From Sphingomonas sp. LC-1 (lineage in GTDB: Bacteria; Pseudomonadota; Alphaproteobacteria; Sphingomonadales; Sphingomonadaceae), in assembly GCF_025371035.1 (NCBI RefSeq), contig NZ_JANZXB010000011.1, forward strand, positions 62,001 through 126,000: 64,000 bases of DNA, read 5' to 3'. Positions 48,945 to 53,476 of this stretch are shown here, piece after piece (positions within the stretch are counted from its first letter, which is position 1; the number at the start of each line of letters is the position of its first letter). Under the pieces are notes generated by a model that did not search any database, was not told the origin of the DNA, and worked only from the letters and a program-made list of their open reading frames with translations. Made by a program: the position numbers and the translations under genes.

Positions 48945-49026
48945 GGGGTATCGGGGGTATCGGACGGGGTATCGCCGTCGACGCGTCCCGCGATACCCCG
49001 ACCGGCAGGCCGATAGCGGGGTATGG
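48945..49026. repeat. Iteron-like GGGGTATCG repeats before the integrase
   Basis: GGGGTATCG occurs at 48945-48953, 48954-48962 and 48966-48974, inverted at 48991-48999, and as GGGGTATGG at 49018-49026 over the integrase start. Five copies in 82 bp between the tRNA and int suggest arm-type integrase sites or autoregulation. Confidence 0.65.
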
Positions 49027-49028
49027 AC

Positions 49029-50333
49029 ATGCTGACCGACACGGCGGTGAAAAAGGCGGAGCGACGGGACAAGCCGTACAAGATGGCCGATTCCGGAGGC
49101 CTATATCTGCATGTTGCACCTACCGGGTCGAAGTCCTGGCGGATGAAATTCCGCTTCGACGGCAAGGAAAAGCTGCTGACGTTTGGGCCGTACCCCGAGG
49201 TCAAGCTATCCGAGGCGCGCGAACGCCGCGATGAAGCGCGCCGACAGATCCGTGATCATATCGACCCGTCCGGTGCGCGGCGGCGGTCGCGTGAGGAGCG
49301 CGACCGGAAGGCGCTCGACGAGGCACGGGCGGTGTCCTTTGAGACGGCGGCGCGGGCCTGGTTCGGTCTGCAAAAAGGGCGATGGGCGCCGGTCCACGCG
49401 GACGACGTCATCACCAGCTTGGAGCGTGACGTCTTTCCGGCCTTCGGTGCCCGCGCGTTGACCGAGATTGACGCCCCGACCGTGCTGAAGGCGCTTCGCG
49501 CGGTGGAGGATCGCGGCTCGATCGAGACGGCGAAGCGACTGCGCCAGCGAATCTCGGCGGTCTTCGCGATGTATATCTCTGAGGGGGTCGTCGCAGTCGA
49601 TCCGGCGGCGGCGGTCGGAAAGGCGCTGCGTCCGCTGCCGAAGAAAGGTCGGCAGCCCGCGCTGACCGATGTCGACGAAGCGCGCGGCGTGCTGATCGCG
49701 GCCGAGGCTTCCGGGGCATCGCCGGTGACCAAGCTGGCTTCGCGCCTGCTAGCGCTGACCCAATCGCGGCCTGGCATGATCCGTGGGGCCGAATGGGAGG
49801 AATTCGAGGGTATTGACTGGACCGGGGAGCAGTATGGCCCATTCATGCCGCTGTGGCGCGTCCCGGCGGCGCGCATGAAGCTGGTCAGCGACCTGAAGGC
49901 CGAGGAAGCTTTCGAGCACCTGATCCCGCTGCCCTGGCAAGCGGTCGACACTCTGCTCGCGGTGCGGCGACTGTCCGGCCGTGGCCGCTTGGTCTTTCCA
50001 AGCCAGCGGCATAGCCACCGCCCGCTGTCCGAGAATGCGATCGGCTATCTGTATAACCGCGTCGGGTATCACGGGCGCCACGTCCCGCACGGCTGGCGCG
50101 CCGCATTCTCGACGACGATGAACGCGATCGCCAAGCGCCAGCGCCGAGTCGGCGATGATGACGTGATCGAGCTGATGCTGGCCCATGTCCCGGCCAATAA
50201 AGTGAAGGCGGCCTATGACCGGGCGGGACACATGGAGCGGCGGCGCGAGCTATCCCAAGAGTGGGCCGACATGCTCATGAAGGGGCTGGCTCCAGCCAAT
50301 GATGTGCTCGGCGGGCGACGGCGGGGCGGCTGA
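49029..50333 (+). CDS. int: Tyrosine-type phage integrase
   Basis: A 434-residue site-specific recombinase. An N-terminal DUF4102 arm-binding domain (KPYKMADSGGLYLHVAPTGSKSW, FGPYPEVKLSEARE), a central core-binding domain and a C-terminal catalytic domain are seen. Catalytic residues: Arg in TQSRPGMIRGAEW, HGWR (His, Arg), LAHVPANKV (His) and the nucleophile Tyr in AAYDRAGH. ATG 49029 has GGGG 7 bases upstream; ATG 49023 lies only 1 base after it. Adjacent to the tRNA-Ser attachment site. Confidence 0.95.
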   Translation: MLTDTAVKKAERRDKPYKMADSGGLYLHVAPTGSKSWRMKFRFDGKEKLLTFGPYPEVKLSEARERRDEARRQIRDHIDPSGARRRSREERDRKALDEARAVSFETAARAWFGLQKGRWAPVHADDVITSLERDVFPAFGARALTEIDAPTVLKALRAVEDRGSIETAKRLRQRISAVFAMYISEGVVAVDPAAAVGKALRPLPKKGRQPALTDVDEARGVLIAAEASGASPVTKLASRLLALTQSRPGMIRGAEWEEFEGIDWTGEQYGPFMPLWRVPAARMKLVSDLKAEEAFEHLIPLPWQAVDTLLAVRRLSGRGRLVFPSQRHSHRPLSENAIGYLYNRVGYHGRHVPHGWRAAFSTTMNAIAKRQRRVGDDDVIELMLAHVPANKVKAAYDRAGHMERRRELSQEWADMLMKGLAPANDVLGGRRRGG

Positions 50334-50349
50334 GCGCCCCGCCTATCGT

Positions 50350-50553
50350 TCAGGCCGCGGCCCGCCAGCCGATCGGATTGGCGACCCACGCGTTGATGTC
50401 CGCCTCATACCACGCGACCATGCGCGTGCTGATTGGTGTGGCGGGCGGGAACGCTCCGGCGGCCATCTTGCGGTAAATCGTCGCCCGCGACAGCTTCGTC
50501 CGAGCGCGGACGTCGGGCAGCCGCAGCAGAGTATCATGCTGACGGTCAGGCAT
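50350..50553 (-). CDS. AlpA-type helix-turn-helix regulator / excisionase-like
   Basis: A 67-residue protein with an MerR-like HTH (LLRLPDVRARTKLSRATIYRKMAAGAFP) and the AlpA tail VAWYEADINAWVANPI. Such proteins act as phage regulators or directionality factors. Strong GAGGAGG ribosome site. Last gene of the leftward operon, convergent with int. Confidence 0.85.
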   Translation of the reverse strand: MPDRQHDTLLRLPDVRARTKLSRATIYRKMAAGAFPPATPISTRMVAWYEADINAWVANPIGWRAAA

Positions 50554-50992: not shown

Positions 50993-51012
50993 GGCCGACA
51001 CGCGAGTCGGCC
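50993..51012 (+). promoter_or_regulatory. Stem-loop before the small secreted-protein gene
   Basis: GGCCGAC-ACGCGA-GTCGGCC gives a perfect 7-bp stem, 16 bases before the ATG at 51029. It may be part of the gene's promoter or 5' leader. No -35/-10 pair is evident. Confidence 0.3.
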
Positions 51013-51028
51013 CATGGAGAGGTTCGAC

Positions 51029-51220
51029 ATGAAGATCTTCGCTGCTGCACTGACCGCTGCCGCCCTGTTCGCCACGCCCGCGCTGGCCGCCCCGTGCCGA
51101 GATGCGAAGGGAAAATTCATCAAATGCCCCGAGAAGGCCGCCTCAGCGTCGACCCGCTGCAAGGCAGCGAACGGCAAGTTCGCAAAGTGCGGGACGCCAG
51201 GCGCGAAGCCGATCAAGTGA
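51029..51220 (+). CDS. Small secreted protein with two C..GKF.KC repeats (moron candidate)
   Basis: A 63-residue protein with a classic signal peptide (MKIFAAALTAAALFATPALA) and a mature part of two repeats, CRDAKGKFIKC and CKAANGKFAKC, each with a Cys pair. It would be exported to the periplasm. GGAGAGG lies 6 bases before ATG 51029. It is the only plus-strand gene inside the leftward operon and has its own downstream hairpin. Confidence 0.78.
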   Translation: MKIFAAALTAAALFATPALAAPCRDAKGKFIKCPEKAASASTRCKAANGKFAKCGTPGAKPIK

Positions 51221-51227
51221 CCCGCGC

Positions 51228-51252
51228 GCCCCGGCCGCCCAATGGCCGGGGC
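51228..51252 (+). terminator. Hairpin after the small secreted-protein gene
   Basis: A perfect 9-bp GC stem, GCCCCGGCC (51228-51236) with GGCCGGGGC (51244-51252), 7-base loop, starts 8 bases after the stop. No T-run. It gives this gene its own 3' end. Confidence 0.6.
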
Positions 51253-51293
51253 ACCGACCCGCGCCCGCTCGCTCATCGCGAAACCGGAGGCGG

Positions 51294-52985
51294 TCATGCT
51301 GCGGCCCTCCCATAGATGGCAGCCAGCGCGGCTTCCGTGCGCAGGATCGCCTTGCCTATGGCTTCGGGGATTTGGGGGATGACCGCGTCGCCGAACGCCT
51401 CGACCTGCCTACTGGCGAACAGTCTCAGCCGTCGCTCTGCCCGCTGGTGAACGGCCCACAAGTCTTGCTCGCATATGGTGACTGGAATGGCAGGGTGAGC
51501 AGAGGGTCTGGAGGTTGGTGGGGTCGCCGTTGGTCCAGTCTTCGTCAATGTGATGGATCGCGAGGCGGTCTGTGCCTTGGCAGACTTCGCAGGCTTCTCC
51601 CAAGTGGCGTCGGGCGCGATGGTTATGCTGCAACCGTCCAACATCGTCTCGGCTATTGGCGCAAGCCTGCGAGCAGTGGTCGCGCTGTAGGAAGCGAGAA
51701 CGATCCTCAAGGCGCTGGCCAAATCGCTGTCGAGTGAAGGCTGCTCCACATGCTCGGCAGATTTTACTGCCGCAATCAATCGCTCGCCTTCCCATCGCAT
51801 ACCCCCTTCTTCAAGCAAGATAGCCAGAAACGCCCAGGCCTGTAACCTAGCATCCAGCCATACGTGACTGGTAAGGTCTCTGAGGGACCAATCAGCCCAG
51901 CCTCCGTCAGGATCGCCGCGATCTGGCGCGCATAGGCCCATTTGTCCGGCGCCCTGCCCGTCTGCGCACCGTCCAGCACAGCGTCCATCGTCGGCGATTT
52001 CCGCTTGTCGTATGCCGGGGACCATGCATCCATCCGCTTGTCCCGCTTGGTCGGGGTCGGAAGTGTCTCGGGCATCAGGAAATGCACGACTTCCCCCATG
52101 TTCGGGGTCCGATCGAAGTCGTCCTGATCCGTGGTCATACGACCCTTCTGCCGTCTCAGCACTGATCCCCGTGGGGCAGGATTCGCTGTTGGCGTACCCA
52201 GCATCCCCGCATGGCGCGATGGATAGCCGTTCAGCTGGCTCAGCACGTCCCCACGGAAGCCCCGATCGGCATCCGTCTTGCGCGGTGTCGCCAGCATGGC
52301 TTGCTGCAACTGGTGACGCGCCGATCCCATCCGGCCCGTGTCCCCGTGCCCACCCGCCTTCATATCCGACGCGCGCGGCGTGCTCAGCGGTGGATTGCCG
52401 ATCAGATCCCAGCCCTCGCACGATGGCCATTTCTGCATGGACGGGTGATGCAAATTCCCGGTTGCTGTTGGGGTGTGCAACCTGTGCAAGGTCGCACCCG
52501 ATGAGCCAGCAGCGGGGTCGCTCGTGGTTGGCTCCGACGTCGCCAGCACGAACCACGACCGGCCAGCAGGCGTAGCCGATTGCCTCCAGCGCAGCGATGA
52601 CGGCGTCAGCGCCCCGAGTTCGGAGATTAGCGCTGTTCTCAAGAGCGAACCAACGAGGGCGGCACTCTCCGATGATACGGATGGCTTCGAAGTAGAGGCC
52701 CGAGCGCTCCCCTTCGACGCCTTTGCCCTTGGTGTTGGCGCTGCTGATATCTTGGCAGGGAGGGGAGCCGACGACGATGGACGGAAGTCGTCCAAGATCA
52801 GCGAGAAGTCGGTCTGCCGTAAGGGTGCGGACATCGTCGTAAACCTTCACGCCTGGATTGTTTTCAGAATAGAGCGCGCGCCGCCAGGCTTCGACCTCGC
52901 AGGCGGCTATCGTCGTGAAGCCCGCGCGGTGCATACCAAGGGACCAGCCCCCGGCGGCCGCGCTGAACAGGTCCAGCGCCTGCAT
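51294..52985 (-). CDS. DNA (cytosine-5-)-methyltransferase, phage type
   Basis: A 563-residue C5-MTase. Motif I DLFSAAAGGWSLG, motif IV GSPPCQDIS with nucleophile Cys77, motif VI ENSANL (about 116-121) and motif VIII-like HERPRCWLIG (about 154-163) are present. Motif X, EAFGDAVIPQIPEAIGKAI, lies at about 529-547. The 365-residue gap between VIII and X is unusually long. It is partly low-complexity phage linker (AHPNSNREF, SDPDQAGQAD) and partly overlain by an HNH gene in another frame. ATG 52985 has GGAGGGG upstream and a TGATG overlap with the preceding gene. Confidence 0.85.
   Translation of the reverse strand: MQALDLFSAAAGGWSLGMHRAGFTTIAACEVEAWRRALYSENNPGVKVYDDVRTLTADRLLADLGRLPSIVVGSPPCQDISSANTKGKGVEGERSGLYFEAIRIIGECRPRWFALENSANLRTRGADAVIAALEAIGYACWPVVVRAGDVGANHERPRCWLIGCDLAQVAHPNSNREFASPVHAEMAIVRGLGSDRQSTAEHAARVGYEGGWARGHGPDGIGASPVAASHAGDTAQDGCRSGLPWGRAEPAERLSIAPCGDAGYANSESCPTGISAETAEGSYDHGSGRLRSDPEHGGSRAFPDARDTSDPDQAGQADGCMVPGIRQAEIADDGRCAGRCADGQGAGQMGLCAPDRGDPDGGWADWSLRDLTSHVWLDARLQAWAFLAILLEEGGMRWEGERLIAAVKSAEHVEQPSLDSDLASALRIVLASYSATTARRLAPIAETMLDGCSITIAPDATWEKPAKSAKAQTASRSITLTKTGPTATPPTSRPSAHPAIPVTICEQDLWAVHQRAERRLRLFASRQVEAFGDAVIPQIPEAIGKAILRTEAALAAIYGRAAA
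51409..51795 (-). CDS. HNH endonuclease nested out of frame in the methyltransferase gene
   Basis: A 128-residue protein on the same strand but in another frame than the methyltransferase. N-terminal zinc ribbon CRACGAAF...CSQACANSR, then the HNH core CEVCQGTDRLAIHHIDEDWTN...LQTLCSPCHSSHH, with both Cys pairs and the HH dyad. It has its own AAGGGGG ribosome site 5-7 bases before ATG 51795. Its stop (51409) falls right where methyltransferase motif X begins. It looks like a mobile HNH nuclease inserted so that the host frame stays open. Confidence 0.8.
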   Translation of the reverse strand: MGRRAIDCGSKICRACGAAFTRQRFGQRLEDRSRFLQRDHCSQACANSRDDVGRLQHNHRARRHLGEACEVCQGTDRLAIHHIDEDWTNGDPTNLQTLCSPCHSSHHMRARLVGRSPAGRATAETVRQ

Positions 52986-53476
52986 CACTTCCGCCCCTCC
53001 CCGTGCGAGAGGGCGGCGTCGTATGCGTCCCACCACTTGCGAGCCGCTGCGAAGGCTGCGGTAGCCTTCGGGCCAGGATCAGCCGCGATCACATCGGCAA
53101 GCAATTTCGCGCATTCATGCAGCATGTCCTCCCCTGCCGGGACCGCATCGACAGCGGGCGCGGGGGTGGCGGATAGGGTGGCCTTACCCGACTTCACCGC
53201 TTCAACAGCGCGACGAAGATCGCCGACCGTGAATGTTGGCCAGACCTGCATATGGGGCTCGTCCTCCGCGTCACCTTCATCAGCATCGGCGAAGGGCTGC
53301 AACGCGCCGATAGCTTCGGAAAGAGCATCCCGCACCGCATCACCCGCGCGGCTGTCGAGGGCGGCGAGGATGGCGTCGGCTTCGCTTTCGCTAAACTGGA
53401 TGGGCGGCAAGGACCCGCATCCATCCCAAGCGGCTTGCAATCTGCGCACGGCATCCGGCGTCTGTCGGGTGGTCAT
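52985..53476 (-). CDS. Phage hypothetical protein
   Basis: A 163-residue acidic soluble protein (LDSRAGDAVRDALSEAIGALQPF, HECAKLLADVIAADPGPKATAAF). No domain recognised. Its stop overlaps the methyltransferase start, and its own start overlaps the stop of the gene before it by 4 bases (ATGA). Confidence 0.7.
   Translation of the reverse strand: MTTRQTPDAVRRLQAAWDGCGSLPPIQFSESEADAILAALDSRAGDAVRDALSEAIGALQPFADADEGDAEDEPHMQVWPTFTVGDLRRAVEAVKSGKATLSATPAPAVDAVPAGEDMLHECAKLLADVIAADPGPKATAAFAAARKWWDAYDAALSHGEGRK

Follow-up and report, generated by a model that had tools for sequence, protein, structure and literature searches.

How can a complete nuclease gene lie within a methyltransferase gene that nevertheless stays open, and how did it come to be there? 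The question is raised by a locus of Sphingomonas sp. LC-1 in a 64,000-nucleotide stretch of contig NZ_JANZXB010000011.1 (positions 62,001 to 126,000), which was analysed as a whole and is called the window here; unprefixed coordinates refer to it. On its minus strand, a gene for an HNH endonuclease is embedded out of frame in the gene of a cytosine-C5 methyltransferase (MTase). We consider it probable, on sequence grounds, that this is an HNH element of the homing type, nested within the C5-MTase gene of a phage. This reading is supported by the nesting itself, the insertion relative to empty alleles, the association of the nuclease lineage with C5-MTase genes and the selection for an open host frame at other loci, all of which are seen in the sequences. 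A possible co-converted flank, the empty loci among viral MTases, the cases in which HNH identity exceeds MTase identity and the intact nuclease residues lend further support.

The MTase is encoded by frame A (51294..52985, minus strand), an open reading frame (ORF) of 563 codons identified by its match to PF00145, the C5-MTase family, and by alignment with relatives. Frame A carries motifs I–VIII at its N-terminal end and motif X at its C-terminal end, and PF00145 matches only residues 1–190 (E = 2.1e-31). Motif I (DLFSAAAGGW) is located at 52944..52973 and the PC nucleophile motif (GSPPCQ) at 52752..52769, while motif X (EAFGDAVIPQIPEAIGKAI), recognised from the sequence and the alignment, lies at 51345..51401 in frame A, directly after the HNH stop codon, all on the minus strand; the names of these motifs, and of motif IX below, are those that we take to apply. 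The HNH gene occupies 51409..51795 of the same strand in frame A+2 and encodes a complete protein of 128 residues. It matches PF01844 (E = 3.2e-5) and, at E up to 1, 24 PHROG families, mostly named HNH endonuclease. The HH..N..H residues and the zinc cysteines are retained in an alignment of 31 sequences, the AlphaFold model has a pLDDT of 92.8, and AAGGGGG, a possible ribosome site, precedes the ATG (51802..51808, minus strand). Judged by its sequence and predicted fold, the ORF is a real gene and no chance ORF. A first-pass annotation, made from the letters of the window, had described both the MTase frame with these three motifs and a complete out-of-frame HNH with this ribosome site, ending just before motif X, and both descriptions are borne out.

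Was the HNH gene inserted into a pre-existing MTase gene? Four relatives without HNH (L006, L007, L008 and L012) show 0.80–1.00 identity over 52520–53000, scored in 40-base windows, and the net insertion relative to HNH-less viral relatives is 369 bp in all eight comparisons that passed the filter of the script. Its right edge is sharp and falls at motif X, where close relatives are again 0.93–0.97 identical. To the left of the element, over about 120 bp (51840..51960, minus strand), identity drops from 0.78–0.93 through 0.75–0.82 to 0.68–0.70 in all six relatives compared, again in 40-base windows; this is what a co-converted donor flank would look like, and the stretch is a possible co-conversion tract. 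HNH-less relatives align on both sides of the HNH at 12 of the 13 loci with matches. Across 18 loci (the subjects L112 and L076 left out), the net insertions are multiples of three in 366 of 373 pairs because the MTase frame is shared, and the remaining seven pairs miss by a single base (464, 383), probably at the edges of alignments. Of the 121 genomes sampled from the genus, four (its own included) hold the window MTase at E = 1e-40, and no HNH of the window lineage was found at the MTase loci of the other three (L299–L302). The insertion expected by the first-pass annotation is thus visible in alignments with HNH-less homologues: the HNH stretch has no counterpart in relatives, and distant phages conserve the HNH.

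Where else does this nuclease occur, and in what company? A tblastn search with the window HNH against 50,697 phage records gave 16 records. Query coverage reaches 80% or more in five of them: Komagataeibacter phages phiKX1 and phiKX2 (E = 4e-15), Staphylococcus phage CUB-EPI_14 (6e-5) and Vibrio phage nt-1 (two records, 2e-5). The first three of these phages have the HNH nested inside a C5-MTase frame that is open. In addition, 118 loci were screened by script on the plus strand only, taken from two profile scans of viral contigs (for the second, the matches listed) and one of 385 genomes of the class; L133–L136, where that strand showed no HNH, were not counted and were later read on both strands. 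Among the matches listed, 42 loci, the window included, have an HNH scoring at least 100 bits, and in 35 of them the script found it nested in an open MTase ORF. The other seven also lie at C5-MTase sequence when inspected by eye: L059, L063, L086 and L089 look nested with the N end cut or shifted, the HNH of L064 is nested in a separate ORF holding motif X, and L069 and L076 appear disturbed in frame. Because nested members were used to train the scoring models, these 42 loci are no unbiased sample. Among the 72 listed loci below 100 bits, L098 is nested, L112 and L123 have an MTase nearby and 69 showed none; the last four of the 118 had no HNH on the strand read. As a separate observation, the C5-MTase at L064:1108-2958 has an apparent intein-like insertion at the PC motif (GFPC / QPFSCAG), in addition to the HNH that lies farther along.

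Other searches added little. No confirmed relative was found with the HNH protein in viral and genome contigs, nor with HNH profile A2 in genome contigs. Among plasmids, 12 records matched part of the HNH, each over less than 80% of the query. In 296 genomes of the order, the HNH protein found its own genome and otherwise a single match, weak and partial. Profile A3 matched its own and four other genomes among the 385 of the class, the latter at only 34–50 bits, and in those four no MTase was found with the HNH.

Is the host frame kept open by selection, or by chance? In all 35 nested loci besides the window (the native loci, near-duplicates included), the HNH lies in frame +1 of the MTase, and each has no stop in the MTase frame across the HNH, where synonymous resampling expects 3.4 to 20.5 stops (P = 0–0.026), the upper value at the Staphylococcus phage locus with a GC content of 0.35; codon usage for this test came from as little as 708 bases at some loci. 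The near-duplicates L080, L081 and L084 were kept in the stop and identity tests and omitted from the pair tests of insertion and conservation. Since only two of the 42 high-scoring loci (L069 and L076) look broken, the condition of an open ORF for entry into the set cannot explain the stop-free frames. At these other loci, selection seems to act on little more than the openness of the MTase frame, as would be expected of a tolerated linker.

The stop-free frames also bear on the idea that a self-splicing intron or an intein carries the HNH gene, which we regard as very improbable. HNH genes are indeed known from group I introns, but an intron would not need the MTase frame to be free of stops, as it is in the 35 native loci, and, for the intron types already described, no Rfam match at E up to 1 was found within 51000–53300. 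An intein endonuclease is read in the frame of its host protein, whereas this HNH lies in frame A+2. A further candidate, namely that the MTase-frame translation of the HNH stretch forms a conserved domain, was dropped: MTase-frame pairs across the HNH appear conserved with a stop penalty (mean z 2.87), but without it the mean z over 481 pairs is 1.11, hardly better than the 0.83 of the third-frame control.

The host gene itself turned out to be less simple than the first-pass annotation had it: frame A stands as described, and an overlapping frame with a motif IX-like sequence and coding composition had been missed. This frame B (51776..52834, minus strand), an ORF of 352 codons in frame A+1 and a candidate beta subunit to the alpha of frame A, matches phrog_1008, 'DNA methyltransferase' (E = 1e-8), and had no sensible match in NCBIfam. 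Near its end it carries WMLGYRPG (51833..51856, minus strand), assigned by eye as motif IX-like, whose counterpart in relatives is WMMGYPPGW; it also bears TPTA-type stretches. Frames A and B are both open in the HNH-less relatives L004–L012. When the synonymous codons of A are resampled, the probability of an open B is 0.0037 in the window and 0–0.049 across the 14 loci tested; the reverse test gives 0–0.0017 for an open A. By codon-position GC, the N-terminal part and motif X fit A better, the MTase core fits both equally, and 51900–52479 fits B better, with a like shift in all six relatives looked at. The variable region of the 'methyltransferase frame' is therefore probably read mainly in B, and frame A is probably not the primary reading frame over about residues 170–362. 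With motifs I–VIII and X in frame A, the motif IX-like sequence in the overlapping frame B, and both frames open beyond chance, the host MTase gene is itself probably dual-coded. The earlier proposal of a mobile HNH that entered with the host frame left open agrees with the HNH-less relatives and the 369 bp, but it is incomplete in that the host gene has two frames.

Some further features of the two frames were noted. Both are open beyond chance in window 51776-52834, L004–L012, L017, L021 and L022, and the VADANS-type stretches of A and the LPTPTA-type stretches of B are one DNA read in two frames. The variable region in L006–L012 appears modular: close relatives differ in the presence and order of blocks such as LATPRKTDADRGFRGDVLSQL and STPRASDMKAGGHGDTGRMG. 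At L013:2929-4207 lies a close relative of the window MTase with shifted frames and an N-terminal part that ends early (sequencing error or decay).

How, then, might the HNH be translated? In the window, the last 20 nt of frame B are shared with the start of the HNH gene. A B-type ORF with a motif IX-like tail stops directly before the HNH ORF, in the same frame, in 25 of the 35 native loci; motif IX is in frame A at L020, L028, L029 and L031, and neither arrangement was found in six native loci. The first start codon follows the preceding stop within 0–6 nt in 29 of 35 (at L024 it is a TTG, 63 nt in), and 22 of 35 have a Shine-Dalgarno (SD)-like string when a loose pattern is used. Translation by termination–reinitiation is plausible from this arrangement. 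In some native loci, about 16–54 bp of host sequence is repeated on both sides of the element. The C-terminal tails of nested HNHs at L021:4001-4519, L023:2992-3480, L024, L058 and L060 resemble the end of frame B (LLMGWPIGHT, WDDCAPT); it looks as though host sequence forms the end of the element, which borrows the old stop of frame B.

It is a serious though tentative possibility, somewhat more doubtful than not, that three proteins are made from three frames of one 1.7-kb stretch, namely alpha (A), the motif IX-bearing beta (B) and the homing HNH (C). If so, the HNH lineage would as a whole be a mobile element whose speciality is the dual-coded end of C5-MTase genes in phages; it would use the stop of beta to start its own translation, and a length of a multiple of three would replace splicing.

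Is the element mobile, or do nuclease and methylase belong together? The second view had been offered in the first-pass annotation as a compact restriction-modification or exclusion pair, in which the sites protected by the MTase would be those at which the HNH cuts foreign DNA, and the overlap would hold the two genes together. HNH and MTase identities are correlated at 0.60 over 630 pairs, which is compatible with such a pair. But the HNH is rare and patchy in these MTase families. Of 160 viral MTase loci, the best 80 from each of two scans with MTase N-terminal alignments, 157 have no HNH at all, one has a weak HNH elsewhere, and only two carry a nested HNH, both being the query contigs themselves. 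Similar HNHs are also found in MTases of much lower identity (HNH 0.90 vs MTase 0.64 for L058/L060, and 0.72 vs 0.47 for L056/L057), and the reverse occurs as well (0.40 vs 0.63 for L060/L098). The paired-function idea thus gained no positive support, and we consider it unlikely. The picture is rather one of a lineage history that is partly shared descent and partly exchange.

Several points weigh against a homing-type element in the window. The window HNH has no stop in the host frame across it where 0.6 are expected, so that its openness (P = 0.53) is no more than chance, and its phase (+2) is unlike that of all 35 native loci; the claim of an open host frame is accordingly correct, and significant in the lineage, though not for the window taken alone. 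The window copy is an atypical member in phase, and the open frame there could be luck. The correlated identities mean that part of the history is shared descent. Vibrio phage nt-1 has a free-standing related HNH (67.6 bits with the lineage model, and a better E than that of CUB-EPI_14), and the 2.5 kb to either side yielded no MTase, so the wider HNH family is not confined to MTases. No donor of the window element was found in the viral contigs, genome contigs and plasmids searched, and cutting and transfer by the HNH are themselves predictions from sequence.

These observations lead to a further alternative, that of a dead passenger: the window would hold an insertion that arose by chance or has decayed, the MTase would be inactive, and its frame would be open by luck. 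The chance-level openness and the non-native phase fit it, as does the loss of the frame B tail in the window. A decayed insertion would hardly be expected to keep every HNH and zinc residue and a confident predicted fold, or to leave a net length of a multiple of three and motif X DNA so close to that of relatives, and we judge it improbable.

For the homing-type HNH element, the following course can be proposed. The element sits in the linker between the DNA for motif IX (frame B) and that for motif X (frame A). In other phages or prophages, MTase alleles without the HNH would be cut by the nuclease close to the conserved motif IX–X DNA, and repair of the cut allele would copy the element in. 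Its length would preserve the MTase frame, so that no splicing is needed; the MTase, presumably still active, would gain merely a linker of no particular sequence, and translation of the HNH would begin at a start of its own, next to where frame B ends. In the neighbourhood, an integrase gene (Arm-DNA-bind_3, Phage_int_M) and an AlpA-type regulator lie at window 49023-50553, 1–2 kb downstream of the MTase, which places the locus near the end of a prophage or similar element.

How does this locus compare with known systems? Free-standing HNH homing endonucleases of phages represent intronless homing, in which the nuclease gene is thought to copy into empty alleles. They lie between genes or split one, whereas here the host frame runs through the nuclease gene. 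The host gene recalls M.EcoHK31I, a C5 MTase whose beta subunit reportedly lies in an alternative frame inside alpha. According to the available passage on that two-polypeptide enzyme, the larger subunit holds motifs I–VIII and X and the smaller one motif IX (PMC3404938), as do frame A and, with its motif IX-like sequence, frame B; the two are likened by description only, the MTase activity here being predicted, and that passage reports no HNH.

For the nested nuclease, the precedent is the ShiLan domain, an out-of-frame HNH in a mycobacteriophage methylase whose host frame stays open (PMC11855218; earlier PMC9957025). In the available parts of the former paper, the domain was not recognised as an intron or intein and was judged to be homing from its distribution. 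The window shares with it an HNH in another frame, the third (+2), of a phage DNA methylase, a stop-free host frame, a patchy distribution with empty alleles, and no intron or intein detected. An out-of-frame hidden HNH in a phage methylase is therefore already known as a kind. Membership in the ShiLan lineage itself is ruled out, since the ShiLan host gp65 belongs to PF01555, an N6/N4 methylase, and the window host to PF00145, and since the ShiLan HNH scores only 10.7 bits (best domain) with profile A6 of the window lineage. In the same available parts, the ShiLan authors found no ribosome site, whereas here an SD-like sequence or the frame B stop precedes many HNH starts. Besides the ShiLan papers, no HNH nested in a methylase gene was found in the part of the open-licence literature covered by titles and abstract starts, and a word search of two HNH surveys (PMC10448857, PMC12724721) gave no mention of methyltransferase or methylase.

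The present case would therefore go beyond the ShiLan literature, as far as its available parts extend, in its C5 host, its separate HNH lineage, its motif IX–X site and its link to an overlapping frame B. Genes can go unannotated beneath the MTase annotations of phages: the records of phiKX1 and phiKX2 list no separate gene for the nested HNH, and in CUB-EPI_14 a single MTase annotation covers it. The codon-level evidence that host and parasite frames are both kept makes testable a route, besides introns and inteins, by which a homing gene could live inside a coding sequence without destroying it. What had been an oddity of a mycobacteriophage N6/N4 methylase thus has a counterpart in a separate nuclease lineage of phage cytosine methyltransferases.
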